In this document: positions 15,657 to 34,671 of the stretch, piece by piece
How positions within the stretch are numbered: position 1 is the first letter of the stretch
Layout: each line of letters begins with the position of its first letter
Origin: Microbacterium ginsengiterrae
GTDB taxonomy: Bacteria; Actinomycetota; Actinomycetes; Actinomycetales; Microbacteriaceae
NCBI RefSeq assembly: GCF_014205075.1
Contig: NZ_JACHMU010000001.1
Coordinates: 868,001 to 932,000, forward strand
Direction: 5' to 3'
DNA length: 64,000 bases
The notes under the pieces: generated by a model
Databases searched by the model: none
Told to the model about the DNA's origin: nothing
Seen by the model: the letters and a program-made list of their open reading frames with translations, nothing else
Position numbers and translations under genes: made by a program

Positions 15657-15693
15657 GACTTGTAACTACAGGACTTGTAATTACAGGTATACT
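15657..15693. promoter_or_regulatory. Tandem operator and -10 in isomerase/kinase promoter
   Basis: Two abutting 15-base repeats, GACTTGTAACTACAG (15657-15671) and GACTTGTAATTACAG (15672-15686), differ at one base; the second contains the perfect palindrome TGTAATTACA. A -10 TATACT follows at 15688-15693 for the plus-strand kinase operon, so a bound protein would cover the promoter. Related sites occur at 24279 and 32415. Confidence 0.65.
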
Positions 15694-15741
15694 CCAAAAC
15701 AGCACGATCCGGAACCGCAACCACCGAAGCAGGCACGAACT

Positions 15742-17232
15742 GTGATCATCGCCCACGACCTCGGCACGACCGGGAACAAGGCCTCTCTGCACCACGACGA
15801 CGGTCGCCTCGTCGCATCGACGACCGTCGGATACCCGGCGCACTTCGCCGCCGGCGGGGTCGCCGAACAGGACCCCCAGGACTGGTGGGATGCCGTCGTC
15901 TCGGCCACCCGCGAACTCCTCACCCGCACCGGGACGGAGCCATCCGCCGTCGGCGGGCTCGTCGTCAGCGGCCAGATGATGGGCGCGGTCCTGCTCGACG
16001 GTGAGGGCGCCCCGGTGCGTCCGGCCATCATCTGGGCGGACACCCGCGCCGCGGCGCAGCAGCGCGAGCTGGAGCAGGCACTCGGCGCCGCCCACGCCTA
16101 TGAGGTGCTCGGCCATCGGCTCAACCCCACGTACTCGGTCGAGAAGGTCATGTGGGTGCGCGACAACGAGCCGGAGGTGTGGGCGCGCGTGCGGCGTTTC
16201 TGCGTCGCCAAGGACTACATCGTCCTCGGTCTCACCGGCCGTCTCGCAACCGACCGCTCGGACGCCTCCGGCACCAACGCCTACGATCAGCGCACCGGCG
16301 ACTGGTCGGAAGAGGTGCTGCAGGCCGCCCGCCTCGACCGCGACCTGTTCCCCGAGATCCTCGACTCGACGGCGATCGCCGGCACGCTGACGGATGCCTC
16401 AGCATCCGCCCTCGGCCTCGATGCCGGCGTCCGCGTGGTGATGGGCGGCGGCGACGGCCCGATGGCCGCGGTCGGATCCGGCATCGTCGCGCCGGAGGAC
16501 GGCGCCTACGTCTGCCTCGGCACATCGTCGTGGATCTCGTTCGCGTCGGACACCCCCCTGCTCGACGCCGGCCTGCGCACCTTCACGTTCGACAACGTCG
16601 TCCCCGGCTCGTTCGTGCCGACCGCGACGATGCAGGCCGGCGGCGCGTCGATCCAGTGGATCAGTGAAGCGCTCTCCGCCGACCCCGCCCGTCCGGAGAC
16701 CGCTCGCCTGACGGGCGAGGCCGGCGGCGACATCGACACCGAAGACCTCTACTTCCTGCCCTACCTCCTCGGCGAGCGCTCCCCCATCTGGGATCCGGAC
16801 GCCCGCGGCGCCTTCGTCGGGATCGGACGGCACCACACCAGGCAGCACCTCGTGCGCGCGGTACTTGAGAGCATCGGATACAACCTGCTCACCAGCATCC
16901 ACGCCTTCCGCGAGTCGGGCGCGACGATCGACCGCATCGACGCCGTCGGCGGCGGGGCGCAGAGCGACGTCCTGCTGCAGATCCTCGCCGACGTCTGGGG
17001 CGTGCCGGTGCGCCGCCGCACCATCGTGGAGGAGGCGAACAGTCTCGGCGCCGCCGTGACCGGAGCCGTCGGACTGGGACTCGCCGACTTCTCCGCCGCA
17101 CGGGCACTGAGCGAGGTCACCGCCGAATTCGCTCCGGATGCCGGCCGCCACGACGTGTACGCGGCCCGCCACTCGCGGTTCACCGCGGCGTACGACGCGC
17201 TCGCGCCGTGGTTCGCGGGAGGGGTGCGCTGA
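15742..17232 (+). CDS. FGGY-family carbohydrate kinase, xylulokinase-like
   Basis: A 496-residue FGGY kinase that phosphorylates a sugar or polyol with ATP. N-terminal AHDLGTTGNKASL, the ATP-site GGGDGPMAAVGSG and the C-terminal VGGGAQSDVLLQILADVWG are typical of xylulokinase-type enzymes. The GTG at 15742 is chosen since it gives the canonical start VIIAHDLG; an upstream in-frame start would lie within the operator DNA. Its stop overlaps the next gene (TGATG). Substrate not assignable: the companion genes are not those of plain xylose use. Confidence 0.87.
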   Translation: MIIAHDLGTTGNKASLHHDDGRLVASTTVGYPAHFAAGGVAEQDPQDWWDAVVSATRELLTRTGTEPSAVGGLVVSGQMMGAVLLDGEGAPVRPAIIWADTRAAAQQRELEQALGAAHAYEVLGHRLNPTYSVEKVMWVRDNEPEVWARVRRFCVAKDYIVLGLTGRLATDRSDASGTNAYDQRTGDWSEEVLQAARLDRDLFPEILDSTAIAGTLTDASASALGLDAGVRVVMGGGDGPMAAVGSGIVAPEDGAYVCLGTSSWISFASDTPLLDAGLRTFTFDNVVPGSFVPTATMQAGGASIQWISEALSADPARPETARLTGEAGGDIDTEDLYFLPYLLGERSPIWDPDARGAFVGIGRHHTRQHLVRAVLESIGYNLLTSIHAFRESGATIDRIDAVGGGAQSDVLLQILADVWGVPVRRRTIVEEANSLGAAVTGAVGLGLADFSAARALSEVTAEFAPDAGRHDVYAARHSRFTAAYDALAPWFAGGVR

Positions 17233-18182
17233 TGGGCGTCATCCTCGCCACCAGCCGCTCCTTCTCGGACGGCGACATCGACCTCGTCTCGCGCGCCGAG
17301 GCGGCAGGCCACCGGATCGTCCGCGGCCCCGCCCACCATGAACTCGCCGACCTGGCCCCACTGCTCGCCACGGCAGACGCCTGGATCGCCGGCACCGGCC
17401 CGGTGACCGTAGCGCACATGGATGCCGCACCCGGACTGCGCGTGATCGCCCGCTACGGCGTCGGCACCGAGGCGGTGGACCTCGCCGCGGCCGCGGAGCG
17501 CGGCATCCCCGTGACGAACACGCCGGGCGCCAACGCGGATGCCGTCGCCGACCACGCCGTCGGCCTCATGCTCGCCGCCCTGCGGTCGATTTCCGATGGC
17601 GACCGCCGCGTACGCCAGGGCGACTGGAGCGTCCGTCGCGGCCGTGAGTTGGGCGCCGCCACGGTCGGCATCGTCGGATTCGGCCGGATCGGCCAGGGCG
17701 TCGCTCGGCGCCTCGGCGGCTTCGGCTCTCGTATCCTCGCCGCCGACCCCTTCCTCCCCGCCGACCGCATCCGGCATGCCGGAGCAGAGCCCGCCGACCT
17801 CGACGAACTCTTCCGCTCCGCTGACCTCATCACGCTGCACGCCCCGGGAGGTCAGCGCCTGCTCGACGGATCACGGCTGGACGGCATCCGCCCCGGCGCG
17901 ATCGTCGTGAACACGGCACGCCCCGACCTCGTCGACGAGACCGCACTCGCCGTCGCGCTCCGCGACGGGCGTCTCGCCGGCTATGCCGCGGACACGCTCG
18001 ACGGCGACACTGCAGCCTCCGCGAGCCCGCTGCTCGCCGAGGACCTCGCCGACCGTGTGATCGTCACCCCGCACCTCGGTGCGCAGACCACGCAGGCCGT
18101 CGACAACATGGGATCCATGTCGCTCGACGATGTGATCGCCGTCCTCGCCGGCCGCGCCCCCGCCTATCCCGTCACCCGCTGA
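17232..18182 (+). CDS. D-isomer-specific 2-hydroxyacid dehydrogenase
   Basis: A 316-residue NAD(P)-dependent dehydrogenase of the phosphoglycerate-dehydrogenase type. The cofactor loop is GFGRIGQG. The catalytic Arg is in VNTARPDL and His in VTPHLGAQT, but the position where the family has Glu (29 residues after the Arg) reads Asp in DTLDGD, a conservative change. Starts on the kinase stop codon, so the two are translationally coupled. It probably oxidises or reduces a hydroxy acid made in this sugar pathway. Confidence 0.85.
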   Translation: MGVILATSRSFSDGDIDLVSRAEAAGHRIVRGPAHHELADLAPLLATADAWIAGTGPVTVAHMDAAPGLRVIARYGVGTEAVDLAAAAERGIPVTNTPGANADAVADHAVGLMLAALRSISDGDRRVRQGDWSVRRGRELGAATVGIVGFGRIGQGVARRLGGFGSRILAADPFLPADRIRHAGAEPADLDELFRSADLITLHAPGGQRLLDGSRLDGIRPGAIVVNTARPDLVDETALAVALRDGRLAGYAADTLDGDTAASASPLLAEDLADRVIVTPHLGAQTTQAVDNMGSMSLDDVIAVLAGRAPAYPVTR

Positions 18183-18191
18183 AAGGCCGAC

Positions 18192-19139
18192 ATGACCACC
18201 GAATCGATCGACTCCACCCCCGACGCCGACTACATGGGCTTCGTCGGAGTCACCACCGGCTCGTCCTCGATCATGACCGTGTTCCCGCTGTGGGCGGACA
18301 TCCTCGGCCTGCCGACGCGCACCCTCATCGGCCACGATCTGCCGATGGACGCCACCCCTGAGCAGTACCGCGCACTCGTCGAGCAGATCCGTGACGACCC
18401 GCACCACCGCGGCGCCCTCGTCACGACGCACAAGATGAACGTCTACGCCGCGGCATCCGACCTGTTCGACGAGCTGGACCCGTTCGCGGTGTCGTGCTCG
18501 GAGATCTCCAGCATCGCCGCGAGCGGCGCCCGCCTGTCGGGGCGCGCGAAGGATCCGATCACCGTGGACCTCGCCCTGCGCGACTTCCTGCCCTCCGACC
18601 ACTTCGCCTCGACGGGCGCAGAGGTCGTCATCCTCGGCGCCGGCGGCTCCGGCACCGCACTGAGCTGGGCCCTCGCCGAACGCGAGGACGCACCGGCCAA
18701 GATCACCGTCACCGCTCGCGACGACGAGAAGCTCGACCACCTGCGCGAGGTGCACCGCCAGCACGGCACCCGCGACGGGCTCATCGAGTACGTCCGCACA
18801 GACTCGCCCGCCGAGGCCGCCGCGATCGTCGCCGCCGCCGCGCCGGGTTCCCTCATCGTCAACGCCACCGGCCTCGGCAAGGATCGCCCTGGTTCCCCAC
18901 TCCCGGACGACGTCGTGTTCCCCGAGGGCGCGTACGTGTGGGAGTTCAACTACCGCGGCTCGCTGGAGTTCCTGCACCAGGCGCGCGCGGCAGAGGCCGA
19001 TCGTGCCCTGCACGTGGTCGACGGATGGCGCTACTTCATCCACGGCTGGTCGCAGGTCGTCGCCGACGTGTTCGACCTCACGCTCACGCCGGAGATCGTC
19101 GAGCAGCTCGCCGACGCCGCGGAGGCCGCGCGGCGATGA
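18192..19139 (+). CDS. Shikimate dehydrogenase-like NAD(P) oxidoreductase
   Basis: A 315-residue protein with the two-domain shikimate dehydrogenase layout. The N-terminal domain keeps a catalytic-type Lys in GALVTTHKMNV and an Asp in RAKDPITV, and the Rossmann domain has LGAGGSGTAL. The C-terminal end (VVDGWRYFIHGWSQ) differs from AroE. Its place in a sugar-catabolic operon, with no aro genes near, argues against a role in aromatic biosynthesis; a cyclic polyol, sugar acid or ketose may be the substrate. GAAAGG precedes the ATG. Confidence 0.78.
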   Translation: MTTESIDSTPDADYMGFVGVTTGSSSIMTVFPLWADILGLPTRTLIGHDLPMDATPEQYRALVEQIRDDPHHRGALVTTHKMNVYAAASDLFDELDPFAVSCSEISSIAASGARLSGRAKDPITVDLALRDFLPSDHFASTGAEVVILGAGGSGTALSWALAEREDAPAKITVTARDDEKLDHLREVHRQHGTRDGLIEYVRTDSPAEAAAIVAAAAPGSLIVNATGLGKDRPGSPLPDDVVFPEGAYVWEFNYRGSLEFLHQARAAEADRALHVVDGWRYFIHGWSQVVADVFDLTLTPEIVEQLADAAEAARR

Positions 19140-20101
19140 CCGGCGTCGTCCGCACCGTCCTCGGCGACATCGACCCCGCACTGCTGGGGTCGACGAACTA
19201 CCACGAGCACCTGTTCCAGGTCAGCCCGCTGCTGCCAGGGGACGAGCTCCACGATGAGGACGCCTCCCGTGCGGAAGCGGCGCTGCTCGGCGCCAGCGGG
19301 TTCGCCGCGATGGTCGATGCGACGCCCCTCGGGCTGGGACGCGACCCGGAGGGCCTCGCACGCATCAGCGCACAGACCGGACTGCGCATCGTCGCCACCA
19401 CAGGGCGACATCGCGAAGCGCACTACGGATCCGACCACCCGCTGCGGGCCTGGACGGCCGAACAGCTCGCCGACAGGTTCGTCGCGGACCTGACGACGGG
19501 AACCGCGGCGGACGAGGCGGTCCTCGCGGATGCGGATGCCCGCGTCGCCCGCACGCCGTCCGGCGCCCCGGTGCGGGCGGGTCTGCTCAAGGGCGGCATC
19601 GACTACTGGCGCATCAGCCCGTTCGAGCGGACGACCCTCGACGCCCTCGGCGCCGCCCACCGCGCGACGGGAGCCCCGATCATGGTGCACCTGGAGTTCT
19701 GCACCGCCGCCCACGAGGTGCTCGACCTGCTCGGCGCGGAGGGCGTGGCATCCGACCGGGTCGTGCTCGCCCACGCGGACCGCGATCCCGACCCCGGCCT
19801 CCACTCCTCCCTCGCCGAGCGCGGCGCGTACCTCGGGTACGACGGCTTCGCCCGCCCCCGCACGCGCAGCGACGCCGAGCTGCTGGCCCTGACCGCCGCC
19901 GTGGTCGAGCAGGGCGGTGGTGACCGCATCCTGCTCGGCGGCGACGTCGCCCGCGCCACCCGCTACATCTCCTACGGCGGGATGCCGGGGCTCGCCTACC
20001 TCGGAGAGCGCTACGTCCCTCGGCTGCGGTCCGCCATCGGCGCGGACGCCGTCGATCGGATGCTGGTCGCCAACCCCGCGCGACTGCTCGCACTCGGCTG
20101 A
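19136..20101 (+). CDS. Phosphotriesterase-family metal-dependent hydrolase, probable lactonase
   Basis: A 321-residue TIM-barrel metallohydrolase. The ligands expected of the family are visible: H23 and H25 in NYHEH, a Lys in LLKGGIDY (possible carboxylated bridge), His in IMVHLEF and VLAHADRD, and Asp in LLGGDVAR. Relatives in sugar operons hydrolyse sugar lactones, which fits the dehydrogenases upstream. The start overlaps the previous stop by four bases. Last gene of the operon before a tandem repeat region. Confidence 0.82.
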   Translation: MTGVVRTVLGDIDPALLGSTNYHEHLFQVSPLLPGDELHDEDASRAEAALLGASGFAAMVDATPLGLGRDPEGLARISAQTGLRIVATTGRHREAHYGSDHPLRAWTAEQLADRFVADLTTGTAADEAVLADADARVARTPSGAPVRAGLLKGGIDYWRISPFERTTLDALGAAHRATGAPIMVHLEFCTAAHEVLDLLGAEGVASDRVVLAHADRDPDPGLHSSLAERGAYLGYDGFARPRTRSDAELLALTAAVVEQGGGDRILLGGDVARATRYISYGGMPGLAYLGERYVPRLRSAIGADAVDRMLVANPARLLALG

Positions 20102-20110
20102 ACCGGGGCG

Positions 20111-20540: not shown

Positions 20541-21542
20541 TCACTCGTAGAGGACTGCGGCGATCTTCTCGTCATCCAGGTTGTTCGCGTCGTACCAGTA
20601 CGAACCGGTGTCGTAGAACTCGTCGACCGACTCGCCCATGGCGGCGTCGTACGCGGCCTGGACGACCTGCGCGCCGATGCCGATCGGGTCCTGCGTGATG
20701 GCGCCGGCCATGGTGCCGTCCTTGATGGCGTTGATCTGCGCCGCGCCGGAGTCGAAGCCGATGATGGTCAGCTTGCCCTTCTCGAGGCCGAGCTCGCCGA
20801 CCGCGTTCACGACGCCGATGGCCGAGCCCTCGTTGGTGCCGTAGATGCCCTTGAGGTCCGGGTGGGCGGCGATCATGGCCTTCGCGATGTCAGCCGACTT
20901 CAGGTGGTCGCCGTCGCCGTACTGGATGTCGACGATCTCGATGTCCGGGTAGTCGGACTCGATCTTCTCGACGAAGCCGTCGCGACGCTCGACACCGGTC
21001 GAGTTGATCTGCGAGTGGCCGACGATGGCGACTTCGCCCTCGCCGCCGATGAGCTCTGCCATGTGCTCAGCCGCCAGCGCACCGGCGACCTTGCTGTCGG
21101 TGGCCGCGAGGCTCAGCCCGACATCGCCGTTGCAGGGAGCGTCGAAGTACACCACGGGGATGTCCTTGGAAGCGGCCTGGTCGAGCGGTGCGACGCACGC
21201 CTCGGGGTCGAGGGCGGCGTACGCGATGGCGTCGGGGTTCTTGTCGATCGCGGCGGTCAGCATCTCGAGCTGCTGAGCGATCTCGGTCTCGGCCGCGGGG
21301 CCTTCGAACGTGATCTTGACGCCGAGCTCCTCGGCGCGCTCCTCAGCACCCTTCTTGACGGCCTGCCAGAACTGGTGCTGGAAGCCCTTCGAGACGAGCG
21401 CGATGTACATCTCACCGTCGCCGCTGCCCTCAGCGCTGCCACCCTCTTCGATGACGTCGCCGTTGCCACCGGCACAGCCGGCCATGACGAGAGCGGATGC
21501 GGCCACCAGTGCCGCGAATGCGGTCTTCTTGCCGAATTTCAT
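20541..21542 (-). CDS. Sugar ABC transporter substrate-binding lipoprotein (RbsB-type)
   Basis: A 333-residue periplasmic-binding-protein-1 type receptor. It has a Lys-rich N-terminus, a hydrophobic signal and a lipobox VMAGC with the lipidated Cys at 23. The mature part begins after a Gly/Glu-rich linker and keeps the sugar-binding fold (YIALVSKGFQHQFWQAVKKG). Last gene of the ATPase-permease-receptor operon on the minus strand. The receptor family suggests a free monosaccharide or polyol; the operator upstream of the operon ties it to the kinase operon. Confidence 0.9.
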   Translation of the reverse strand: MKFGKKTAFAALVAASALVMAGCAGGNGDVIEEGGSAEGSGDGEMYIALVSKGFQHQFWQAVKKGAEERAEELGVKITFEGPAAETEIAQQLEMLTAAIDKNPDAIAYAALDPEACVAPLDQAASKDIPVVYFDAPCNGDVGLSLAATDSKVAGALAAEHMAELIGGEGEVAIVGHSQINSTGVERRDGFVEKIESDYPDIEIVDIQYGDGDHLKSADIAKAMIAAHPDLKGIYGTNEGSAIGVVNAVGELGLEKGKLTIIGFDSGAAQINAIKDGTMAGAITQDPIGIGAQVVQAAYDAAMGESVDEFYDTGSYWYDANNLDDEKIAAVLYE

Positions 21543-21606: not shown

Positions 21607-22638
21607 TCAGGTGCGCTGGCGGTTGCGCAGCGAGTCGAGGAACACGGCGAGCAGGACGACGACGCCGACGACGACGTTCTGCCACTCCGTCTGGATCGAC
21701 AGGATGCGCAGGCCGTTGACGAGCACGCTCATGATGAGCGCACCGATCACGGTGCCGAGGATCGAGCCGCGACCGCCCAGCAGGGAGGTGCCGCCGATGA
21801 TGACGGCCGCGATGGCCTGCAGCTCGTAGCCCGTTCCGATCTGCGGCTGCGCCGAGTCGAGTCGGGAGGCGATGATGACACCGGCGATACCGGTGAAGGC
21901 GCCGGCGAACATGTAGATGAAGATCGTCCAGCGGCGGGTGTCGACACCGGAGAGGCGTGCGGCCTCCTCGTTCGATCCGATCGCGAAGGTGTAGCGGCCC
22001 AGCAGGGTCTTGGACAGCACGATCGCCGCGATGATCGCGAGCACGGCCGTGATGAGGACGGCGTTCGGGATGCCGGGGATGATGACGCCGAGGGCGATCT
22101 TCTTGAAGTCGGGGGCCGACGTGGAGAAGTAGATCGGCGCGACACCGGAGATGACCAGGGCCAGACCGCCCGCGATCATCATCATCGCCAGGGTGGCGAT
22201 GAAGGGAGGCAGCCGCAGGAACGTCACGTTGAGGCCGTTGACGAGACCCATGAGGACACCGGTCGCGATGCCGCCCAGGATACCGACCCACACGGGAAGC
22301 CCCATGTTGGTGATGAAGACACCCGTCATGACGGCGCACAGCGCCATACCGGTTCCCAGCGACAGGTCGATGCCGCCGGTGATGATCACGAAGGTGGTAC
22401 CGAGCGCGAGGATGCCGATGACCGCCGTCGACAGCAGCACCGTGGCGATGTTGCTGAACGTGAAGAAGTTCGGGCTCGCGATCGCGAAGAAGATCACGAG
22501 GATCACGAGTGTGCCGAAGGCCAGCGACTGCTGGAGCTGACGCTTCAGGAAACCGGCGAAGTCACGCTTGTCGGTGTCCTCGTTGACGGCCTGCTGGATG
22601 ACGGTGGTCGTCTCTCCGGACTGCTGTGGGGTGCTCAT
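21607..22638 (-). CDS. Sugar ABC transporter permease (RbsC-type)
   Basis: A 343-residue integral membrane protein with about ten hydrophobic segments of the branched RbsC/AraH permease family; GGIDLSLGTGMALCAV and AVIIGGTSLLGGRGS are diagnostic. It has a hydrophilic N-terminal extension of about 35 residues. Its start overlaps the ATPase stop (TGATG). A small hairpin with stem GCCGGC (21568-21583) lies between it and the receptor gene and may tune relative expression. Confidence 0.9.
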   Translation of the reverse strand: MSTPQQSGETTTVIQQAVNEDTDKRDFAGFLKRQLQQSLAFGTLVILVIFFAIASPNFFTFSNIATVLLSTAVIGILALGTTFVIITGGIDLSLGTGMALCAVMTGVFITNMGLPVWVGILGGIATGVLMGLVNGLNVTFLRLPPFIATLAMMMIAGGLALVISGVAPIYFSTSAPDFKKIALGVIIPGIPNAVLITAVLAIIAAIVLSKTLLGRYTFAIGSNEEAARLSGVDTRRWTIFIYMFAGAFTGIAGVIIASRLDSAQPQIGTGYELQAIAAVIIGGTSLLGGRGSILGTVIGALIMSVLVNGLRILSIQTEWQNVVVGVVVLLAVFLDSLRNRQRT

Positions 22639-24140
22639 CAGTCTTCCTCCCCGTGGGCTGCGAGTTGCATGATCTTCTCCTGGCTGGCTTCCTCGTTGCG
22701 GAGGGTCCCCATGATCCGACCGTTCGCGAAGACCGCGATGCGGCCGGCGACGCGGAGGATCTCGGGGAGCTCCGACGAGATGACGATGATGGACTTCCCG
22801 GCGTCAGCGAGCTGCTGCATGAGCCGGTAGATCTCTTCCTTCGCGCCGACGTCGATCCCTCGGGTCGGCTCGTCGAAGATGAGGATGTCGCAGTCGCGCA
22901 TCAGCCACCGGGCGATGACGACCTTCTGCTGATTCCCTCCGGAGAGCAGCTTCACGATCTGGTTCACCGACGGCGTCTTCACGCGCAGCTGCTGCACGTA
23001 CTGCTTGGTCTGGTTCTTGGCCTTGCCATCGACCATCCAGCCGAGCGCGCCGGCGTAGTTGCTCAGGGAGGCGAGGACGGTGTTGAAGGTGACGTCCTGC
23101 TCGAGCATGAGTCCGAGCTGCTTGCGGTCCTCGGAGAGGTATCCGACCCCGCGGCGGACCGCATCCTTGGGCTGGTTGATCTTCGCGTCGCGGCCGTTGA
23201 TGAGGATCGTGCCGGCGCTGCGCGGGTCGGCCCCGATGAGCGCGCGAGCCGTCTCGGTGCGCCCGGCACCCATGAGGCCGGCGAACCCGAGGATCTCACC
23301 GCGGTGCAGCTGGAACGTGACGTCCTTGAGCAGCGTCTTGGTGGACAGACCCGACACGTCGAGCACGACGGGCTGATCCTGGTGATCGCGGGGCGCGGGG
23401 CGCGTTCCCTCGTCGATCACGCGGCCGACCATCATCTCGATGATCTTCGGGATGCTGATCTCGCTCTTCTCGAGTGATCCGATGTATTGCCCGTCACGGA
23501 GCACGCTCACGCGATCGGCGAGACGGCGCAGTTCGTCCATGCGGTGGGAGATGTAGACGATCCCGGTGCCGTCGGCCTTCAGCTGCTCGATGAGCGTGAA
23601 GAGGGTCTCGACCTCGCTGTCCGTGAGCGCCGAGGTCGGCTCGTCCATGATGAGCACCTTGGCGTTGAACGACAGCGCCTTGGCGATCTCGACCATCTGC
23701 TGCTCGGCGACCGTCAGCTCGCCGACCTTCTGGCGAGGGTCGAGGCGGATCTTCAGACGTGCGAGCAGTTCGGAGGTCTGCCCGTTGAGGTTGCGCTCCG
23801 AGAGCAGACCGCCGGAGGTGGGCTCGCGGCCGATGAAGATGTTCTGCGCGACCGTGAGGTCGGGCATGAGGTTGAGCTCCTGGTGGATGATCGTGATCCC
23901 CAGCTGCTGCGCCTGCAGCGGGCTGGTCAGTTCGACCTCCTGCCCCTCGAAGACGATCGTGCCCTCGTCGCGCGTGTAGATCCCGGAGAGGATCTTCATG
24001 AGCGTCGACTTGCCGGCACCGTTCTCGCCGACGAGGACGAGCACCTCGCCCGCGCGCACCTCGAGGTGCACATCCTTGAGGGCCTGCACTCCGGGGAACC
24101 CCTTGGAGATGCCTTCCACTCTGAGGACTGGATCGCTCAC
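22638..24140 (-). CDS. Sugar ABC transporter ATP-binding protein (RbsA-type, two ABC domains)
   Basis: A 500-residue duplicated ATPase. Domain 1 has Walker A GENGAGKST and Walker B LIMDEPTSAL; domain 2 has the degenerate A-loop GLMGAGRTE, the signature LSGGNQQK and LIFDEPTRG. This asymmetry is normal in RbsA. The start is GTG at 24140 (VSDPVLRVEGISKG); in-frame upstream ATGs would place promoter DNA inside the gene. First gene of the importer operon and divergent from the epimerase-like gene. Confidence 0.92.
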   Translation of the reverse strand: MSDPVLRVEGISKGFPGVQALKDVHLEVRAGEVLVLVGENGAGKSTLMKILSGIYTRDEGTIVFEGQEVELTSPLQAQQLGITIIHQELNLMPDLTVAQNIFIGREPTSGGLLSERNLNGQTSELLARLKIRLDPRQKVGELTVAEQQMVEIAKALSFNAKVLIMDEPTSALTDSEVETLFTLIEQLKADGTGIVYISHRMDELRRLADRVSVLRDGQYIGSLEKSEISIPKIIEMMVGRVIDEGTRPAPRDHQDQPVVLDVSGLSTKTLLKDVTFQLHRGEILGFAGLMGAGRTETARALIGADPRSAGTILINGRDAKINQPKDAVRRGVGYLSEDRKQLGLMLEQDVTFNTVLASLSNYAGALGWMVDGKAKNQTKQYVQQLRVKTPSVNQIVKLLSGGNQQKVVIARWLMRDCDILIFDEPTRGIDVGAKEEIYRLMQQLADAGKSIIVISSELPEILRVAGRIAVFANGRIMGTLRNEEASQEKIMQLAAHGEED

Positions 24141-24238: not shown

Positions 24239-24290
24239 TGTACCTAAATGTACCTAATAGATGTCCCCACATGGTAGACCTGTAATAACA
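24239..24290. promoter_or_regulatory. Candidate operators in transporter/epimerase promoter
   Basis: In the 194-base divergent gap, CCTGTAATAACA at 24279-24290 matches the shared operator of this sugar system in all but one core base. Nearby, TGTACCTAA occurs twice at 24239-24247 and 24249-24257, a 10-base period that puts both copies on one face of the helix, possibly the site of a second regulator. Confidence 0.5.
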
Positions 24291-24334
24291 ACTTTGTCAC
24301 AGATGCGCGCAGACGCGCATGGGAAAGGATCGAC

Positions 24335-25207
24335 ATGCTCATCGGCGCGCACGGATTGGTCTTCACCGGAACCTTCGACGAGGCGGGCCTTCGCCGCGCC
24401 ATCGAGGGCACGAGATCGGCGGGGTTCGACCTCATCGAGATTCCCCTCATGGATGCCGAGGGCTTCGACTCCGCGGCCGCCGGCCGGCTGCTCCGCGACA
24501 ACGATCTCGCCGTGACGGCCTCGCTCGGGCTGACCTCCGAGACGGACCTCACGAGCGAGGACCCCGCCGTCGTCGCCGCCGGCGTCGCGACGCTCGAGCG
24601 CTGCATCGATCACGTCGCGACGATGGGCGGTGACGTGCTGTGCGGGGTCATCTACTCCGCGATGGGCAAGTACATGGCGCCGGCGAGCGACAAGGGCATC
24701 GCCCACAGTCAGGCCGCGATCTCCGGTCTGGCTGCGAAGGCCGCCGAGCGCGGCATCCGCCTCTCGCTCGAGGTCGTCAACCGCTACGAATCCAACGCGT
24801 TCAACACCGGACGCGGGGCGCTGCGATTCCTCGACGGCGTCGAGGGCGACGTCAGCGTGCACCTGGACACCTATCACATGAACATCGAGGAGTCCGACTT
24901 CTTCCAGCCGGTGCACGACGTCGCCGCGGCGGGCAAGCTCGGCTACGTGCACATCGGCGACAGCCACCGCGGCTACCTCGGCACCGGAACCGTGGACTTC
25001 GCGACCTTCTTCCGCGCACTGCACGATGTCGCCTACGACGGACCGGTCGTCTTCGAGTCCTTCTCTTCCGCCGTGGTCAGCGCAGAGCTGAGCAACACCC
25101 TCGGCATCTGGCGCAACCTCTGGCAGGACTCGGATGATCTCGCCGCGCACGCCAACCGGTACATCCGCGACGCGCTGCACGCGGTGGACACCATCGACCT
25201 GCACTGA
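24335..25207 (+). CDS. Sugar 3-epimerase-like / xylose-isomerase-fold TIM-barrel protein
   Basis: A 290-residue member of the tagatose/psicose 3-epimerase-like group. The four metal ligands can be placed: Glu in LEVVNRYE, Asp in HLDTYHMNIEE, His in IGDSHRGYLG and Glu in VVFESFSS. It isomerises or epimerises a free or phosphorylated ketose. AAAGGA precedes the ATG. It is alone on its strand, divergent from the importer, and followed by the repeat cluster at 25.2 kb. A role just after uptake is likely. Confidence 0.85.
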   Translation: MLIGAHGLVFTGTFDEAGLRRAIEGTRSAGFDLIEIPLMDAEGFDSAAAGRLLRDNDLAVTASLGLTSETDLTSEDPAVVAAGVATLERCIDHVATMGGDVLCGVIYSAMGKYMAPASDKGIAHSQAAISGLAAKAAERGIRLSLEVVNRYESNAFNTGRGALRFLDGVEGDVSVHLDTYHMNIEESDFFQPVHDVAAAGKLGYVHIGDSHRGYLGTGTVDFATFFRALHDVAYDGPVVFESFSSAVVSAELSNTLGIWRNLWQDSDDLAAHANRYIRDALHAVDTIDLH

Positions 25208-25229: not shown

Positions 25230-25560
25230 AGGCTTCGACTCCGTCGCTGCGCGACTCCGCTCAGCCCGTTTCGTCTGCGGCGGCTGCACCGCCTTCGCTC
25301 AACGACCCGCGGCACGCCGCCACCCACGGGACGTTGAGCGAGCGAAGCGAGACGAAACGGGCTGAGCGACCGCAAGGAGCCGAGGCCGGCTCAGCGCCGG
25401 GGTCCAGACTTCGACTCCGTCGCTGCGCGACTCCGCTCAGCCCGTTTCGTCTGCGGCGGCTGCGCCGCCTTCGCTCAACGACCCGCGGGACGTTGAGCGG
25501 ACGCCGAAGGCGGGAGACGAAACGGGCTGAGCGACCGCAGGGAGCCGAAGCCGGCTCAGC
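25230..25560. repeat. Intergenic palindromic repeat cluster, locus 3
   Basis: Alternating copies fill the gap: a direct unit from 25230 (GGCTTCGACTCCGTCGC), an inverted copy at about 25331-25400, a second direct copy from about 25408, and a second inverted copy to 25560. Each direct/inverted pair could fold as a hairpin with 60-70-base arms. The core GCTCAGCCCGTTTCGTCT is identical to loci 1 and 2. It separates the epimerase from the convergent fucU. Confidence 0.8.
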
Positions 25561-25563
25561 GCG

Positions 25564-25983
25564 TCACGCGGACGGATGCCCGACGACGCCCTTGCGCAGC
25601 AGCGCGTTGCCGTACTTGCGCGTCTCACCGGTGCGCACCATCAGGTAGGCGGGGCGCGCGGCCTCGTAGTACGCGAAACGCTCCACGAACCGTGTCGTCT
25701 CGACGGTCGTACCCGCGGCATCCATCAGCTCGTGCTGGACGTCGAGGATCTCGCCGTCGGCGCTCTCCATGAGATCGAGACCCGGCGCATCGTCGAGGGG
25801 GATGACGGTGCGGATGGCGGCCAGCACCTCCGGCGTCGTCGTCCCCGGCAGATCGATCGTGCGCTCCCCGAGCCCCCATGCGGGGAAGTGCGCGTCGGCG
25901 ATCACCACGGAGTCCGAGTGGCCCATGCGGTCCAGGTGCAGCAGCAGCTCACCGGTCAGCAGCGGGTGGATTCCTTCGAGCAT
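25564..25983 (-). CDS. fucU: L-fucose mutarotase
   Basis: A 139-residue RbsD/FucU-family protein that interconverts the alpha and beta anomers of L-fucose. It begins MLEGIHPLLTGELL, has the family residues HSDSVVIADAHFPAW (His/Asp pair) and ends in the ARPAYLMVRTGETRKYGN block typical of FucU rather than RbsD. Third gene of the minus-strand fucose operon after the dehydratase and the aldo/keto reductase; supplies the anomer used by the dehydrogenase. Confidence 0.9.
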   Translation of the reverse strand: MLEGIHPLLTGELLLHLDRMGHSDSVVIADAHFPAWGLGERTIDLPGTTTPEVLAAIRTVIPLDDAPGLDLMESADGEILDVQHELMDAAGTTVETTRFVERFAYYEAARPAYLMVRTGETRKYGNALLRKGVVGHPSA

Positions 25984-26012: not shown

Positions 26013-26975
26013 TCATGCGGGAATGAGCCCCTCATGGGCGAGTTCCGCCCAGAAGTCCGCGGGGATCTCGGTGGCGGCCAGCGCGGCATTCTGACGCACC
26101 TGCTCGGGGCGGGAACTGCCGACGACGACCGAGCGAGTGACCGTCTCGCGCAGGGGGAACTGGATCGCGGCCGCCGGCAGCAGCACGTCATGGGCCCGGC
26201 AGACGGCGACGATCCGCTGGAGACGATCCCAGATGTCGTCCGGGATGCCGCCGTACTCGTAGCGACCGTCCCTCGTGGGCTCCGCCTTCGCGAGCAGCCC
26301 TGAGTTGAAGACGGATGCCGCGACGACACCCGTTCCGCGGTCATGACAGGCAGGAAGCACCTCGGCCGCCGCCGGCTGCTCGAGCAGCGTGTAGCGACCG
26401 GCGATCATGATCGTGTCGAGGTCGGCCTCGCGTACCGAGCGCACCAGCGCGTCGCTGGTCATGGCCCCGACACCGATCGCACCCACGGCCCCCTCGGCGC
26501 GCAGCCGTTCGAGTGCGGGGAACGCCGACGCGACAGCGAGGTCGAGGTCGTGACGCTCCGGGTCGTGGAGGTAGAGGAGATCGATCCGTTCGATTCCGAG
26601 ACGCTCCTGCGATTCCTCGAGCGACGCGCGGATGCCGGCCTCCGAGAAGTCCCACACGCGCTGCACGTCGTCCGGCACGAAGAAGTCGTTGTCCGTGTCG
26701 AGCCCGCCGGCGAAGTCCGGGTTCGGACGCAGCAGACGGCCGGCCTTCGTCGAGAGGAAGAACTCGTCACGCGGCTTCGTGCGCAGGAACGCCCCGAGGC
26801 GGCGCTCGGAGAGGCCGAGACCGTAGTGCGGCGCGGTGTCGTAGTAGCGGATGCCGCTCTCCCACGCGGCATCCAGCACCGCCCACGCCTCGTCGTCGGT
26901 GAGCGCGCGGAAGAGGTTGCCGACGTTCGCTGCCCCGTAGCCGAGCGCGGGGATCACCTGATCACTCGGCGACAT
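26013..26975 (-). CDS. Aldo/keto reductase, probable L-fucose dehydrogenase
   Basis: A 320-residue AKR. The catalytic tetrad is visible as Asp and Tyr in [11 protein letters not shown], Lys in FLSTKAGR and His in LLYLHDPE. It resembles the D-threo-aldose 1-dehydrogenase group that oxidises L-fucose to the lactone. The position between fuconate dehydratase, whose end it overlaps by 14 bases, and fucU supports this. No other sugar-1-dehydrogenase is present in the fucose block. Confidence 0.85.
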
Positions 26976-28257
26976 GCGCGCCCGTCCAGGTGTACTTCCG
27001 AATGCTCTCCGCCTTCATCTCCATGCCCGCCCCCGGCGCGGTGGGCGCCATGTAGGACCCGCCGCGGATGTCGGTCGGGGTGACGAAGTGCTCGTGGAGG
27101 TGGTCGACGAACTCGATCAGGCGCCCCTCGCGTGTGCCGGTGACGGCGACGTAGTCGAACATCGACAGGTGCTGGACGGCCTCGCACAGACCGACCCCGC
27201 CGGCGTGCGGGCAGACCGGAACGCCGAACTTGGCGGCCAGGAGCAGGTTGGCGATGTTCTCGTTCACGCCGGCGACACGGACCGCATCGATCTGCATGAC
27301 CTCGATGGCCTCGGCCTGCAGCAGCTGCTTGAAGATCATCCGGTTCTGCGCGTGCTCACCGGTGGCAACACGGATCGGGGCGATGCCCCGCGCGATCTCG
27401 GCGTGGCCGAGGATGTCGTCGGGGCTGGTGGGCTCCTCCACCCACGCCGGGTTGAACTCCGCCAGCGCGTTCACCCACTCGATCGCCTCGGACACCTCCC
27501 ACCGCTGGTTCGCGTCGATCGCGATGGGGAAGTCGGGGCCGACGACCTCACGCGCCTTGCGGAAGCGGCGGATGTCGTCGTCGAGGTCGGCGCCGACCTT
27601 CAGCTTGATCTGGGTGAAACCGTCGGCGAGCGCCTCGCGCGCCAGGCGCTCGAGCTTCTCGTCGGAGTATCCGAGCCATCCGGGGCTGGTCGTGTACCCG
27701 GGGTAGCCGGAGGCGAGGAGCTCGGCCTCACGCTCCTCGCGCCCTTCGACGCCGGCGCGGAGGATCTCCAGCGCCTCGTCGCGGGTGAGGGCGTTGGTCA
27801 GGTAGCGGAAGTCGACGAGGTCGACGATCTCCTCGGGGGTCATCCGCGCGAGCAGCTGCCACAGCGGAAGGCCCGCACGCTTGGCCTTGATGTCCCACAG
27901 CGCGTTGATGACGGCGCCGATGGCCATGTGCATGACGCCCTTCTCGGGGCCCAGCCACCGCAGCTGCGAGTCGCCGATGATGTCGCGGAACGTCCCGCCC
28001 ATGTCGTCGAGCAGCGGCTCGATCTCCCGACCGACGAGGTGTCCGGCCAGCGCGTCGATCGCCGCCACCTGCACGTCGTTGCCGCGACCGATCGTGAACA
28101 CGAAGGAGTGGCCGTCGATGCCGTCGCCCGCATCCGTGCGGATGACCGCGTACGCTGCGGAGTAGTCCGGGTCGGGGTTCATCGCGTCCGAGCCGTCCAG
28201 GCTCAGCGATGTGGGGAAGCGGATGTCGGTGGTGTCGACTGCGACGATACGGCTCAA
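26962..28257 (-). CDS. L-fuconate dehydratase (enolase superfamily)
   Basis: A 431-residue enolase-superfamily protein of the mandelate-racemase group. Acid/base and metal residues are seen as the Lys pair in IKLKVGA, Asp in DANQRWE, Glu in VEEPTSP, and the Asp/His pair in MQIDAVR and GEHAQN. Length and the N-terminal [20 protein letters not shown] match fuconate dehydratases (ENOSF1-like). It makes 2-keto-3-deoxy-L-fuconate. TTG at 28257 is the start, with AGGAGAGG upstream. First gene of its operon, under the operator-containing promoter at 28.3 kb. Confidence 0.92.
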
Positions 28258-28298: not shown

Positions 28299-28332
28299 TT
28301 GGAGTGTAAACATCGGATGTCTATACTGTCAA
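28299..28332. promoter_or_regulatory. Overlapping divergent promoters sharing one operator
   Basis: Plus strand: -35 TTGGAG (28299-28304), 17-base spacer, -10 TATACT (28322-28327) for the hydrolase gene. Minus strand: -35 TTGACA (28332-28327), 18-base spacer, -10 TACACT (28308-28303) for the dehydratase operon. The inverted repeat ACATCGGATGT (28310-28320) lies in both spacers, so one bound repressor would block both directions. Confidence 0.75.
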
Positions 28333-30942: not shown

Positions 30943-30960
30943 TCGCCCATCCTGCCGCAG

Positions 30961-30971: not shown

Positions 30972-30989
30972 ATCGCTAGGATGGCGGAC

Positions 30990-31667
30990 ATGGCTGTCAC
31001 CGATGAAGCGATCGAGAAGATCAAGGCGATGATCGTGTCCGGCGAGCTCTCGCCGGGAGACCGCCTTCCGCCGGAGAAGGAGCTCGCCGAGCGGCTCGGC
31101 CTCTCGCGCAACTCGATGCGTGAAGCGGTCAAGGCCCTCGAGGTGATCCGTGTGCTCGACGTGCGCCGCGGTGACGGCACCTACGTCACCAGCCTCGAAC
31201 CGCACCTGTTGCTCGAAGCGGTCTCCTTCGTCGCGGACATGCACGACGACGATTCCCTCCTCGAGATCTTCGCGGTGCGGCGGATGCTGGAGTCCCAGGC
31301 CACCGGGCTCGCGGCCACGCTCGGCACCGACGAGGCCGTCTCGGGGCTGCGGGACGAGATCGAGGCCGTCCGCGCCGACGTCTCCATCGATGAGCTCGTC
31401 GACCACGACATCCGCTTCCACCGCGAGATCGTCCGCATGGCGGGCAACAGCTATCTCGCGAGCCTGATCGAGAGTCTCAGCGGTCAGACCGTCCGCGCGC
31501 GCGTCTGGCGCGGCCTCACCGAAGCAGGCGCTGTCGAACGCACCCTCTCGGAGCACCGCGCCATCGCGGACGCGATCGCGCAGCGGGATCCCGGCCTTGC
31601 CACCTCGCTCGCCACGGCGCACATCGCCGGGGTGGAGCGGTGGTTGCGCCAGGCCGCGGCATCCTGA
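30990..31667 (+). CDS. FadR-type GntR regulator of the L-fucose genes
   Basis: A 225-residue GntR regulator with an N-terminal winged helix (LPPEKELAERLGLSRNSMRE) and a helical FCD domain carrying likely metal/ligand residues in DHDIRFHREIVRMAGN. The ATG at 30990 is used; an ATG at 30981 adds three residues. The ACATCSGATGT site in front of it and at the dehydratase/hydrolase promoter indicates it controls the whole fucose block, with a pathway intermediate as likely inducer. Confidence 0.86.
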   Translation: MAVTDEAIEKIKAMIVSGELSPGDRLPPEKELAERLGLSRNSMREAVKALEVIRVLDVRRGDGTYVTSLEPHLLLEAVSFVADMHDDDSLLEIFAVRRMLESQATGLAATLGTDEAVSGLRDEIEAVRADVSIDELVDHDIRFHREIVRMAGNSYLASLIESLSGQTVRARVWRGLTEAGAVERTLSEHRAIADAIAQRDPGLATSLATAHIAGVERWLRQAAAS

Positions 31668-31676
31668 GGCGCCTGA

Positions 31677-31699
31677 CTCCGGACGCCGAAGCGCCGGAG
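31677..31699. terminator. Short hairpin between convergent genes
   Basis: CTCCGG-A-CGC pairs with GCG-CCGGAG around a CGAA tetraloop in the 43-base gap between the regulator and the aldolase-like gene. Likely a shared transcript end. Confidence 0.5.
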
Positions 31700-31710
31700 C
31701 CGCCGGACGG

Positions 31711-32379
31711 CTAGGCGCCGATGCGCCCCATCGCGGCGTCGAACTCCGCGGCCGAGGAGTCGCTCACCTCGTGGAAGAGCAGCTCGTCGAGCACGTCGGG
31801 CGCCGCGGTGAAGTACGGGACACCCGCCAGTCGCAGCGAGACGATGTCGTCGGCAGAGCGCAGGCTCGCGGCGAGCACGTTCGTCTCGCTGCCGGCGCAC
31901 ACCGCCTGCATCTTCGGGATGAGGGCGTCGCCGTCGACCCCGGCATCCCGGAGCCGCCCGAGATACGGTGCGATGTACCGCGCGCCGATGCCCGCCGCGG
32001 CGAGAGCCTGACCCACCGAGTACACGGCGGTCACGAGGACGGGGACGCCGTCGGCGGCGAGGACGGATGCCGCGGCGAAGCCATGAGCGGTGGCCGGCAC
32101 CTTGACCGCCACCCGGTTTCCGAGGTTGCGGATCCCGTCGGCGTTGCGCAGCAGCTCGTCGCGATCGGCACCCCAGGTCTGGAAGAAGATCTCCTCGGCG
32201 CCCTCGTCCGACCACCGAGCGTAGAGGTCGGGGATCTCGGCGGCGGCGCGACCGCCGCGCTCGAGGATCGTCGGGTTGGTCGTGACGCCGCGGACGACGC
32301 CGGCGGCGAGCAGCCGGGACACCCGTTCGAGGTCGGCGCTGTCGACGTACAGGCGCGGTGCGATGGCGGCAGCAGGCAT
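31711..32379 (-). CDS. Transaldolase-family / fructose-6-phosphate-aldolase-like protein
   Basis: A 222-residue small transaldolase of the FSA type. It begins LYVDSADLERVSRLLAAG with GVTTNPTIL, and the Schiff-base Lys is in VAVKVPAT. It forms or cleaves a C-C bond in a phosphosugar. GAGGAG precedes the ATG. Divergent from the PfkB kinase with a shared operator, so it probably cleaves the product of that kinase or of the FGGY kinase. Confidence 0.85.
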   Translation of the reverse strand: MPAAAIAPRLYVDSADLERVSRLLAAGVVRGVTTNPTILERGGRAAAEIPDLYARWSDEGAEEIFFQTWGADRDELLRNADGIRNLGNRVAVKVPATAHGFAAASVLAADGVPVLVTAVYSVGQALAAAGIGARYIAPYLGRLRDAGVDGDALIPKMQAVCAGSETNVLAASLRSADDIVSLRLAGVPYFTAAPDVLDELLFHEVSDSSAAEFDAAMGRIGA

Positions 32380-32414
32380 GGAAGAGCTCCTCGAGCTGGG
32401 GCGGGTGATCGCAA

Positions 32415-32454
32415 CCTGTCGTTACAGGTGCGGATTCGGCTAATGTAATGACAG
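32415..32454. promoter_or_regulatory. Two shared-regulon operators in aldolase/PfkB promoter
   Basis: CCTGTCGTTACAGG (32415-32428) has perfect five-base arms, and ATGTAATGACAG (32443-32454) is a second copy 28 bases away. Both match the TGTAATTACA core found at 15.66 kb and 24.28 kb. TAATGT at 32441-32446 may be part of the PfkB promoter. Confidence 0.6.
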
Positions 32455-32487
32455 CCATCGACGAAGTCAAAGAAGATCAGGAGCGTC

Positions 32488-33435
32488 ATGCCCCCCTCCC
32501 CCACCGCAGGACGCACTGGCGTCGTCATCGTCGGCAGTGTCACGGCGGATGTGACCACGTTCTCGCAGCGTCTTCCGGCCAGGGGCGAGACGATCCTCGG
32601 CGACCAGTTCACCCTCTTCCTCGGCGGCAAGGGCGCCAATCAGGCCGTCGCCGCAGGACGCGCAGGAGCGAAGACGAGCTTCGTCGGCTGCGTGGGCGAT
32701 GACCTCTTCCGCGACCTCGTCGTCGACGGCCTCACCGACGCCGGGGTCGACCTCACCCACCTGCGCACGGTCCCCGGCCCGACGGGCATCGCGCACATCC
32801 GCGTCGACGCCTCGGCGCAGAACGACATCGTCATGGTGCCGCTGGCGAACGCCGCCCTCAGCACGGAGCAGATCGACGCGGCGTTGGATGTTCTCGCCCC
32901 CACCACCTCCGTGCTGCTCACCCAGCTCGAGACCCCGTCTGCCCTGACGGCGCACATCACCGCACGCGGCCAGGAGCACGGGATGACCGTCATCCTCGAC
33001 CCCGCACCCGCCGCGCCGCTCCCCGACGAGGTCTGGCAGAACATCGACATCGTCACGCCCAACGAGACCGAGGCGTCGATCCTCAGCGGGATCGAGGTGA
33101 CGGATGCCGTGACCGCCGAACAGGCCGGCCGGTGGTTCCTCGACCGTGGCGCACGCGCGGCGGTCATCACCCTCGCCGCGCAGGGCTCCTGCGTCGTGAC
33201 GGCGGACGGCGCGATCGTCGTGCCGCCGCTGCCGGTGGATGCCGTCGACACCACCGCCGCGGGTGACGCGTACGCCGGCTACCTCGGTGTCGCGCTCGCG
33301 AACGGCGCCTCCCTCACCGACGCGGTGCGCCTGGCGACCGCCGCCGGCGCCCTCACCGTCACCAAGCACGGCGCATCGCCGAGCCTCCCCGTCCGCAGCG
33401 ACGTCGACGCCTTCCTGGCGTCACGCGCATCCTGA
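32488..33435 (+). CDS. PfkB-family sugar kinase, ribokinase-like
   Basis: A 315-residue PfkB kinase with the N-terminal GGKGANQAVAAGRAGA and the catalytic C-terminal DTTAAGDAYAGYLG (general-base Asp). It phosphorylates the hydroxymethyl group of a pentose or related sugar. AGGAG lies five bases before the ATG. Followed 12 bases later by rbsD and then by the UTRA regulator, forming one operon. Confidence 0.87.
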   Translation: MPPSPTAGRTGVVIVGSVTADVTTFSQRLPARGETILGDQFTLFLGGKGANQAVAAGRAGAKTSFVGCVGDDLFRDLVVDGLTDAGVDLTHLRTVPGPTGIAHIRVDASAQNDIVMVPLANAALSTEQIDAALDVLAPTTSVLLTQLETPSALTAHITARGQEHGMTVILDPAPAAPLPDEVWQNIDIVTPNETEASILSGIEVTDAVTAEQAGRWFLDRGARAAVITLAAQGSCVVTADGAIVVPPLPVDAVDTTAAGDAYAGYLGVALANGASLTDAVRLATAAGALTVTKHGASPSLPVRSDVDAFLASRAS

Positions 33436-33447
33436 TCAGGAGCCCCC

Positions 33448-33846
33448 ATGCGAAAGACCACCACGACGATCAACCCCGCACTCTCCCGTGTCATCAGCGA
33501 GACCGGACACACGGACCTCATCGTCGTGACCGACGCCGGGCTGCCGATCCCCCCGGGATCCGAGCGGATCGACCTCGCCTACCGTCCAGGTGCCCCGGCG
33601 TTCTTCGACGTGCTCGACACGGTCCTCGCCGAGATGGTCGTCGAGGGCGCGACGGTGTCGGCGGAGGTCGCCGACCACAGCCCGGAGGTCCTGCAGCAGC
33701 TCCGCGACCGGCTGCCCGGGATCGAGATCGAGCTGATCCCGCACGTGGAGTTCAAGAAGCGCACGCACGCGGCACGCGCCTTCGTGCGCTCCGGGGAATT
33801 CACCCCCTACGCGAACGTCATCCTGCACGCGGGGGTGGCGTACTAG
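33448..33846 (+). CDS. rbsD: RbsD-family sugar pyranase/mutarotase
   Basis: A 132-residue RbsD protein interconverting pyranose and furanose forms of a sugar. MRKTTTTINPALSRVISETGHTD contains the catalytic His, and HVEFKKRTHAARAFVRSG and PYANVILHAGVAY are the family's closing motifs. Distinct from the FucU paralogue at 25.6 kb. Its stop abuts the next ATG, so the regulator is translated from the same mRNA. Confidence 0.88.
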   Translation: MRKTTTTINPALSRVISETGHTDLIVVTDAGLPIPPGSERIDLAYRPGAPAFFDVLDTVLAEMVVEGATVSAEVADHSPEVLQQLRDRLPGIEIELIPHVEFKKRTHAARAFVRSGEFTPYANVILHAGVAY

Positions 33847-34671
33847 ATGTCCGCACGTTCGGCGGCGCAGGACGCGATCGACCGGCACTCCGCAGCGCCC
33901 ATGTACGACCAGCTGCGCCACCTCATCATCGACGGCATCGAGCGCGACGGGCTCGAGCCGGGAGACCCGCTGCCCAGCGAGCATCGTCTGTGCGAGCAGT
34001 ACGGCATCTCCCGCACCGTGGTGCGACAGGCTCTCGCACAACTCGAGCACGAGGGTCTCGTCGAGCGGGTCAAGGGCAAGGGCACATTCGTCTCCCGCCC
34101 CCGCACGAGCGAGTCGCTCGTGCACACCTTGATCGGTCTCTACGACGACGTGGAGCGCCGCGGCGGCCATGTGCACAGCGACATCCTCCGCCACGAGCGC
34201 GTCGAGGCGGACGCGGACGTCGCGACCGCGCTCGAGGTGCCGGTCGGGTCTCCTGTGGTCGCGCTGGAACGTCTGCGGCACGTGGACGGCGAGCCGTGGT
34301 CGCTGTCGACGACGTGGATGCCCGAGCCCGTCGGGGCCGTCACCCTGGGGGTCGACCTGTCCGAGGCATCCCTCTACCGACTGCTCGCGGAGAACGGGAT
34401 CAGGGCGACGGACGGCGTGCGCTCGGCGGAGGCGACCGTCGCGACGCACGATCAGGCCCAGCACCTCGGCGTCAGCGCCGGCTCCGCCCTGCTGCGGCTG
34501 CGGAGCATCAGCCGCGACGCCGCCGGCACCCCCATCGAGTACTTCATCGCACTGCACCGCGGCGACCGTTCCCGGTTCGAGTTCCAGCTCCGCGAAGAGC
34601 AGTCGCAGGCCTCGTTGCTGCACGTCGACGTCGGTGGTGCGACCTCTCGGGCGGGTACAGTCTCTCTCTGA
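33847..34671 (+). CDS. GntR-family regulator with UTRA domain
   Basis: A 274-residue HutC-type regulator: winged helix at about 25-85 (YGISRTVVRQALAQLEHEGL, KGKGTFVS) followed by a UTRA effector domain that usually binds a phosphosugar or similar metabolite. It begins directly after the rbsD stop, in the operon whose promoter carries the TGTAATTACA-type operators, so it is the best candidate for the protein binding all three shared sites. Confidence 0.87.
   Translation: MSARSAAQDAIDRHSAAPMYDQLRHLIIDGIERDGLEPGDPLPSEHRLCEQYGISRTVVRQALAQLEHEGLVERVKGKGTFVSRPRTSESLVHTLIGLYDDVERRGGHVHSDILRHERVEADADVATALEVPVGSPVVALERLRHVDGEPWSLSTTWMPEPVGAVTLGVDLSEASLYRLLAENGIRATDGVRSAEATVATHDQAQHLGVSAGSALLRLRSISRDAAGTPIEYFIALHRGDRSRFEFQLREEQSQASLLHVDVGGATSRAGTVSL

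Follow-up and report, generated by a model that had tools for sequence, protein, structure and literature searches.

The stretch of DNA analysed here, hereafter the window, comprises the 64,000 nucleotides from base 868001 to base 932000 of the single-contig genome of Microbacterium ginsengiterrae (3,037,642 bases). It contains three divergent promoters of sugar genes which share a palindromic operator, together with the gene of a GntR-type regulator carrying a UTRA domain, and we describe here the regulon predicted from them.

Operators and genes at the locus

The consensus of the operator is CCTGTAATTACAGG, with the core TGT-N4-ACA, and four places in the window match it with at most three mismatches, against 0.18 expected (100 shuffles, largest count 2). 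At promoter 1, operators 1a (CTTGTAACTACAGG, 15659..15672) and 1b (CTTGTAATTACAGG, 15674..15687) stand in tandem with a 15-bp pitch. Promoter 2 has operator 2 (CCTGTAATAACAAC, 24279..24292), and promoter 3 has operator 3a (CCTGTCGTTACAGG, 32415..32428) and the weaker operator 3b (AATGTAATGACAGC, 32442..32455), which has four mismatches and keeps the TGT-N4-ACA core; all five are given on the + strand. An initial annotation of the window had located these sites to within one or two bases, and the divergent promoters and the gene types that it described agree with the assignments below. A simple scan for sigma-70 promoters found none in the region 15580-15780, and the -10 elements were therefore read by eye from conservation.

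Promoter 1 separates the gene of a cupin-type GPI-family isomerase (15038..15643, - strand; Pfam PF06560, 118.8 bits) from four genes on the + strand. The first of these encodes a xylulokinase-like FGGY sugar kinase (15742..17232; TIGR01312, 395.1 bits with a cut-off of 380.25; PF00370/PF02782), followed by a D-isomer-specific 2-hydroxyacid dehydrogenase (17232..18182; PF02826/PF00389), a shikimate-dehydrogenase-like (SDH-like) dehydrogenase (18192..19139) and a phosphotriesterase (PTE)-family hydrolase (19136..20101; PF02126, 136.9 bits). The SDH-like enzyme gave a weak NCBIfam shikimate dehydrogenase match below the cut-off (E 9.1e-10) and no match to a PDB sequence at E 0.001. The PTE-family hydrolase, whose nearest solved relative is 3pnz and which scores 92.6 bits on NF045706 (cut-off 630), is a probable phospho-sugar lactonase.

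Promoter 2 lies between an RbsABC-type sugar ABC importer on the - strand and a ketose 3-epimerase on the + strand. The importer consists of a substrate-binding protein (20541..21542; PF13407, 197.5 bits), a permease (21607..22638), which matches the NCBIfam ribose/arabinose permease models below their cut-offs, and an ATPase (22638..24140), which scores 579.9 bits on the NCBIfam RbsA model (cut-off 745) and whose start near 24140 was placed from the hidden Markov model match. The binding protein scored better on allose and rhamnose models than on RbsB and reached the cut-off of no specific model; its RbsB score of 93.3 bits, against a cut-off of 337, does not mark it as ribose-specific. The epimerase (24335..25207; PF01261) matches PDB 5zfs (D-allulose-3-epimerase) and 8yeb (ketose 3-epimerase) with 362 bits.

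At promoter 3, the gene of an enzyme of the transaldolase/fructose-6-phosphate-aldolase (TAL/FSA) family (31711..32379, - strand; PF00923, 120.9 bits) faces three genes on the + strand. These encode a ribokinase-like PfkB kinase (RbsK, 32488..33435; TIGR02152, 293.3 bits with a cut-off of 299.65), for which the genome gave no second match at E 1e-20, the D-ribose pyranase RbsD (33448..33846; NF008761, 152.7 bits with a cut-off of 93) and the GntR/HutC (UTRA) regulator (33847..34671; PF07702, 119.8 bits with a cut-off of 23.8; PF00392, 72.5 bits with a cut-off of 27). Operon membership, in the sense of shared transcripts, was inferred from spacing and strand.

Conservation of the operator

For the comparison we used 119 genomes of the same genus, including the source genome. 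An ortholog of the regulator, accepted at an identity of at least 58% (the next best match has 39%), is present in 25 of them, and the genes surrounding it were mapped in the source genome and the 24 other UTRA-positive genomes. The promoter counts leave out the genomes whose stretch stops short of the gene (the FGGY gene was mapped in 22 of the 25, and that of 2-keto-3-deoxy-6-phosphogluconate (KDPG) aldolase in 20). Among these genomes, the site was kept with at most three mismatches at 82 of the 88 orthologous promoters examined, whereas 200 permuted palindromes scanned on the identical stretches gave a mean of 0.385 and a maximum of 4. The site was found at the cupin/FGGY promoter (promoter 1) in 22 of 22 genomes, at the importer promoter (promoter 2) in 21 of 23 and at the TAL/RbsK promoter (promoter 3) in 23 of 25; the remaining counts come from a separate KDPG-aldolase promoter described below. 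Note that a distant second cupin (33-36% identical to the first) replaces the first cupin in 12 of the 22 genomes with the FGGY operon mapped, the other 10 having the first, and that the promoter-1 stretch in 12 genomes was taken 600-800 bases upstream of the FGGY gene, in front of the other cupin gene. These 12 stretches were chosen after sites had been noticed there, and the permuted palindromes were scanned on the same shifted stretches. By this comparison the sites of the window are conserved in related genomes, consistent with the single regulon that the initial annotation had proposed.

No site was found at the control starts FAH (0/23), AKRf (0/23), C (0/22) and G (0/23), 0 of 91 together. 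The starts of seven further genes in the operons, among them the regulator, were likewise free of sites over the preceding 100 bases (0 of 161). One of 24 FadR control starts had a site; in this genome (G041) the contig end truncates the gene, the match beginning from residue 140 at contig base 1, and the slice is misplaced. The mean frequency of the commonest base was higher in the sites than in the 20-bp flanks (0.90 vs 0.53, 0.93 vs 0.58, 0.88 vs 0.63 at promoter 3 with 8 sequences only, and 0.91 vs 0.52), and the TGT...ACA core was intact in all 102 sites picked at three or fewer mismatches by a rule which did not demand the core. At promoter 1 the tandem sites are spaced 15 bp apart in four genomes carrying the first cupin; where the second cupin is present, the spacing is 22-23 bp. 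Of 17 named loci bearing the regulator, 16 belong to Microbacterium. Beyond the genus, the regulator has an ortholog with 75% identity in Leucobacter komagatae, where CCTGTCATTACAGG stands between the TAL and RbsK genes.

Two further promoters with the site were found outside the window. At chromosome position 933751, 1.75 kb past the window end, GTTGTAATTACAGG lies 44 bp before a gene for KDPG aldolase (PF01081, 156.9 bits), and at position 377421 CCTGTCATCACAGG precedes an aldo/keto-reductase gene, with about 15 bp between the site and the gene start. The predicted regulon would thus comprise five promoters and 15 genes, that is, 13 in the window, the KDPG aldolase and the aldo/keto reductase. 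The earlier estimate of about 15 genes agrees with this total, although the window alone holds 13 and both outlying promoters had been missed.

The KDPG aldolase is the telling case: it belongs to the FGGY operon in two genomes (G086 and G043) and elsewhere is separate, where 16 of 18 genomes nevertheless keep the operator in front of it. A search of 40 genomes without the regulator gave relatives of this aldolase at E 1e-40 in two, and in both the gene has no site in front of it. An alpha-galactosidase gene lies to the left of the KDPG-aldolase site; among the 25 stretches compared it has a match in the source genome only, and it may or may not be under the same control.

The aldo/keto-reductase gene provides a second test of the link to the regulator, since this gene occurs both in genomes that have the regulator and in genomes that lack it. 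Its promoter has a core-bearing site in 19 of the 25 UTRA-positive genomes (16 with at most three mismatches, three with four). Since 14 of these promoters had been found through the site search itself, the remaining 11 UTRA-positive genomes were checked without that bias, and five of the 11 had the site. Among UTRA-negative genomes, 40 of the 94 were searched and the best 30 orthologs examined; none of the 30 had a site, the best match having six mismatches, and in five of the 30 stretches a possible start codon lies within the 60 bases read. A TAGGCT-like element beside the site is visible in most of the promoters, UTRA-positive and UTRA-negative alike.

A whole-genome scan for CCTGTCATSACAGG found this sequence in 17 of the 119 genomes, all 17 of them UTRA-positive. 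Of the 24 places listed, six correspond to promoter 1; another two are at neither promoter 1 nor the aldo/keto-reductase promoter. These two are perfect copies at G107:C1:100448 (L197) and G029:C3:586748 (L211), with no match to any regulon query beside either; the G107 site lies at promoter distance before a start codon and may be a lineage-specific target.

The UTRA regulator and its operator

The comparison of genomes also reveals a co-occurrence of sites and regulator. Sites with at most two mismatches number 4.6 on average (range 2-7) in the 25 genomes with the ortholog and 0.39 in the 94 without it, whereas the reversed-pattern control gives 1.32 and 1.21 per genome, respectively. Orthologs of the SDH-like enzyme with at least 60% identity occur in 25 genomes, 24 of which bear the regulator. 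From these comparisons, we consider it very probable that the HutC-type UTRA GntR regulator (33847-34671) controls the five promoters as an autoregulated repressor regulon. The initial annotation had likewise named this protein as the likely regulator, and its choice is further favoured by the position of the gene behind two sites and by the spacing of the operator discussed below.

The interleaved fucose block, which contains the gene of an MR/MLE-type dehydratase (26962-28257, - strand), has no CCTGTAATTACAGG-like site. It was said to use a different operator, and the comparison of its promoters agrees with this. The 10-mers around an ACATCSGATGT-like sequence are common to 22 of the 23 FAH promoters (the divergent promoter of FAH and the dehydratase), and AGACATCCGA occurs in 20 FadR promoters. 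In the window, ACATCSGATGT is found exactly at 28310 (28310-28320) and at 28463; with 1.12 matches expected at no more than one mismatch the count is not significant, and it is the conservation that carries the motif. We regard it as a candidate operator of the FadR-type fucose regulator, at 28310-28320 and upstream of 30990. The block also contains a second RbsD/FucU-family gene (25582-25974), which by its position is likely a fucose mutarotase.

The FadR-type GntR protein of this block (30990-31667) is also a candidate if the sites do form a regulon and another regulator binds them. Its gene belongs to the cluster and occurs in 25 of 25 UTRA-positive genomes, and a 20.8-kb stretch of L. komagatae keeps FadR though no fucose-enzyme query matched there. 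Against this, the 28 genomes which are FadR-positive and UTRA-negative have a mean of 0.32 sites, in comparison with 4.6, so FadR does not explain the motif, and the promoters of the FadR-type gene share the different palindrome ACATCSGATGT. The GT-AC spacing points the same way, since according to the text of PMC4494728 sites of the FadR subfamily have three or two bases between GT and AC, and most HutC-type sites have the form GT-N4-AC. Furthermore, genome G034 keeps FadR, the fucose block, a ribokinase (80%) and a KDPG aldolase (87%). It gave no match to the UTRA protein, and the two stretches read contain no site; from its gene content, it looks like a natural deletion of the regulator. 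We therefore judge control of the sites by FadR or another regulator to be very improbable. The cluster of G034 (L290, L248) has a remnant-like appearance, with the fucose block and FadR followed directly by the ribokinase, and neither a UTRA nor an SDH-like match was found in that genome.

Several observations weigh against the assignment of all these promoters to the UTRA regulator. Over the whole source genome, the consensus matched 17 places with at most three mismatches and five with at most two, in comparison with 29 and four for the reversed-pattern control. The plain mismatch count thus does not clearly exceed the control genome-wide, and position and conservation decide; a stricter core, HTGTVRYNACAD, gave 15 forward-strand matches (control 32), seven of which are sites treated here. 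Six of the 88 orthologous promoters have no site at three or fewer mismatches; five of them keep a core-bearing one with four or five, and the RbsA promoter of G043 has none. Only seven of the 22 genomes where the epimerase was matched have it behind a site (G033 being counted at four mismatches), and the aldo/keto-reductase site is absent in six of the 25 regulator-bearing genomes. Matches at two or fewer mismatches also occur without the ortholog, once or more in 28 of the 94 genomes lacking it and twice or more in eight. In G030 the FGGY operon and its site are present, and no regulator ortholog was found in the assembly, which is 77% complete. Finally, when five loci with UTRA proteins of 36-39% identity were scanned, a like site was found near one (G056) and none near the other four. 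At the G056 locus (L254), the 36%-identical UTRA regulator is encoded at 9834-10568, and CTTGTAATGACAGG lies at 10672, about 100 bp before the start and beside an importer ATPase gene; this related regulator may share the motif.

If the UTRA protein is the regulator, it would bind the palindrome CCTGTAATTACAGG through the TGT-N4-ACA core at the five promoters. Its gene sits in one of its own target operons, behind two sites, suggesting autoregulation. Repression would most likely be exerted by covering the promoter, and the repressor would come off the DNA once its UTRA domain has bound an intermediate formed from the imported sugar, probably a sugar phosphate; this effector is suggested by analogy, because sugar phosphates are putative effectors of NagR according to the text of PMC4333415. 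The target genes would form one catabolic route.

The tandem sites at promoters 1 and 3 fit either a repressor or an activator, and the spacing at promoter 1 differs between the two cupin groups, so we also considered that the regulator activates instead of repressing, or does both depending on the promoter. The aldo/keto-reductase site stops a few bases short of the conserved TAGGCT-like element and some 15 bp short of the start codon, which suits steric blocking instead. DasR and YvoA/NagR, the closest relatives among solved structures, are described as repressors in the text of PMC4333415. An activating or dual role is thus unlikely, and repression remains the reading that we prefer.

The profile scores give the protein both the GntR winged helix-turn-helix (HTH) and the UTRA domain expected in the HutC subfamily, and the palindrome with GT-N4-AC in all of the 102 sites has the operator geometry of this subfamily, provided that the protein binds it. 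Its best matches among solved structures, DasR of Streptomyces and NagR/YvoA of Bacillus (119 and 104 bits), are N-acetylglucosamine repressors with the same layout of HTH and UTRA domain. The arrangement of the targets is like that of NagR, whose sites precede the nagR-containing operon and a separate importer gene (as described in PMC4333415). In contrast, the same description gives NagR sites a G at position -5, next to the conserved G-4, the G at -5 often giving way to T in just one half-site, whereas position -5 is T in all 204 half-sites here. The base beside the conserved G therefore indicates a HutC-type but not a dre-type regulator. The targets also differ from those of DasR and NagR, being of the ribose/ketose kind and not amino sugars.

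Ribose (rbs) operons are under the LacI-type RbsR. The present regulon shares with them RbsK, RbsD and an RbsABC-type importer, and differs in its GntR/HutC regulator and in the extra enzymes, including the KDPG aldolase. HutC regulons reconstructed by comparative genomics in PMC4494728 have, as far as its main text describes them, the same GT-N4-AC palindrome, and their sites likewise lie singly or in twos between divergently transcribed genes. That main text, to which the comparison was confined, does not contain the word Microbacterium, and an equivalent regulon may be listed in the supplementary regulon tables. As a kind of system, a scattered, autoregulated HutC-type sugar regulon is ordinary.

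The putative pathway and other repeated elements

With a candidate regulator and a defined operator, genes which match only generic sugar-enzyme families become one testable unit, to which two genes outside the window are added. The six-enzyme pathway is the more open part and worth a test at the bench. We tentatively propose, at clearly less than even probability, that a pentose or ketose is degraded under the control of this regulon by an oxidative pathway not described so far, which passes through a phosphorylated lactone and leads to a KDPG-type cleavage. In such a route, isomerisation by the cupin would be followed by phosphorylation (FGGY and/or RbsK) and by oxidation to a phospho-lactone by the SDH-like enzyme; the PTE-family lactonase would then open the lactone, and a step of the hydroxyacid dehydrogenase would lead to cleavage by the KDPG-type aldolase. 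A limited literature search, which was not a full reading of the literature, recognised no described pathway with this set of six enzymes.

The alternative is that several independent sugar operons stand under one switch without a single pathway, ribose being separate from a rare ketose, which is compatible with the regulon as proposed above. RbsD passes a ribose-specific model and RbsK falls just under its cut-off, the genome has one ribokinase match and, except for the one in the fucose block, no second RbsD-family gene, and in 15 of 22 genomes no site precedes the epimerase, which matches D-allulose 3-epimerase structures. The six enzymes, on the other hand, cluster also without this regulator. 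Two genomes lacking the regulator ortholog, G024 and G070, have all six (cupin, SDH-like, FGGY, KDPG-type aldolase, hydroxyacid dehydrogenase and PTE) with 37-61% identity within 20 kb; both stretches contain alpha-L-rhamnosidase genes, and that of G024 an RpiR-type regulator. The genomes G028, G065 and G104 match the cupin, SDH-like, FGGY and KDPG-type enzymes, and the hydroxyacid dehydrogenase and PTE were unmatched in the stretch read, which weighs against the reading as a six-enzyme set. In G005 and G116, where the SDH-like copies are more distant, relatives of the cupin and FGGY alone were found close by. Taken together, we would put the independent operons only a little short of an even chance. 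Profile and PDB matches give the family of these proteins and not the substrate, and D-ribose, a rare ketose or several related sugars are possible.

Two palindromes of the form TGTCGYGACA elsewhere on the chromosome, CTGTCGTGACAG at 155686 and TTGTCGCGACAG at 161157, have GC-rich centres and were left out of the regulon. They lie in or near a cluster (L018) which we read by eye as one of TRAP-transporter and dehydratase-like genes, the stretch at 155686 being within its divergent promoter, and they are perhaps sites of another GntR-type regulator. Within the window, the 28-base element CGTTTCGTCTCGCTCCGCTCGCTCAACG occurs in six copies, one of them with a mismatch, at 14747, 14884, 20146, 20246 and 20346 on the + strand and at 25332 on the - strand. 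The copies flank the FGGY module and the importer on both sides, with a mean of 0.00 expected by chance.

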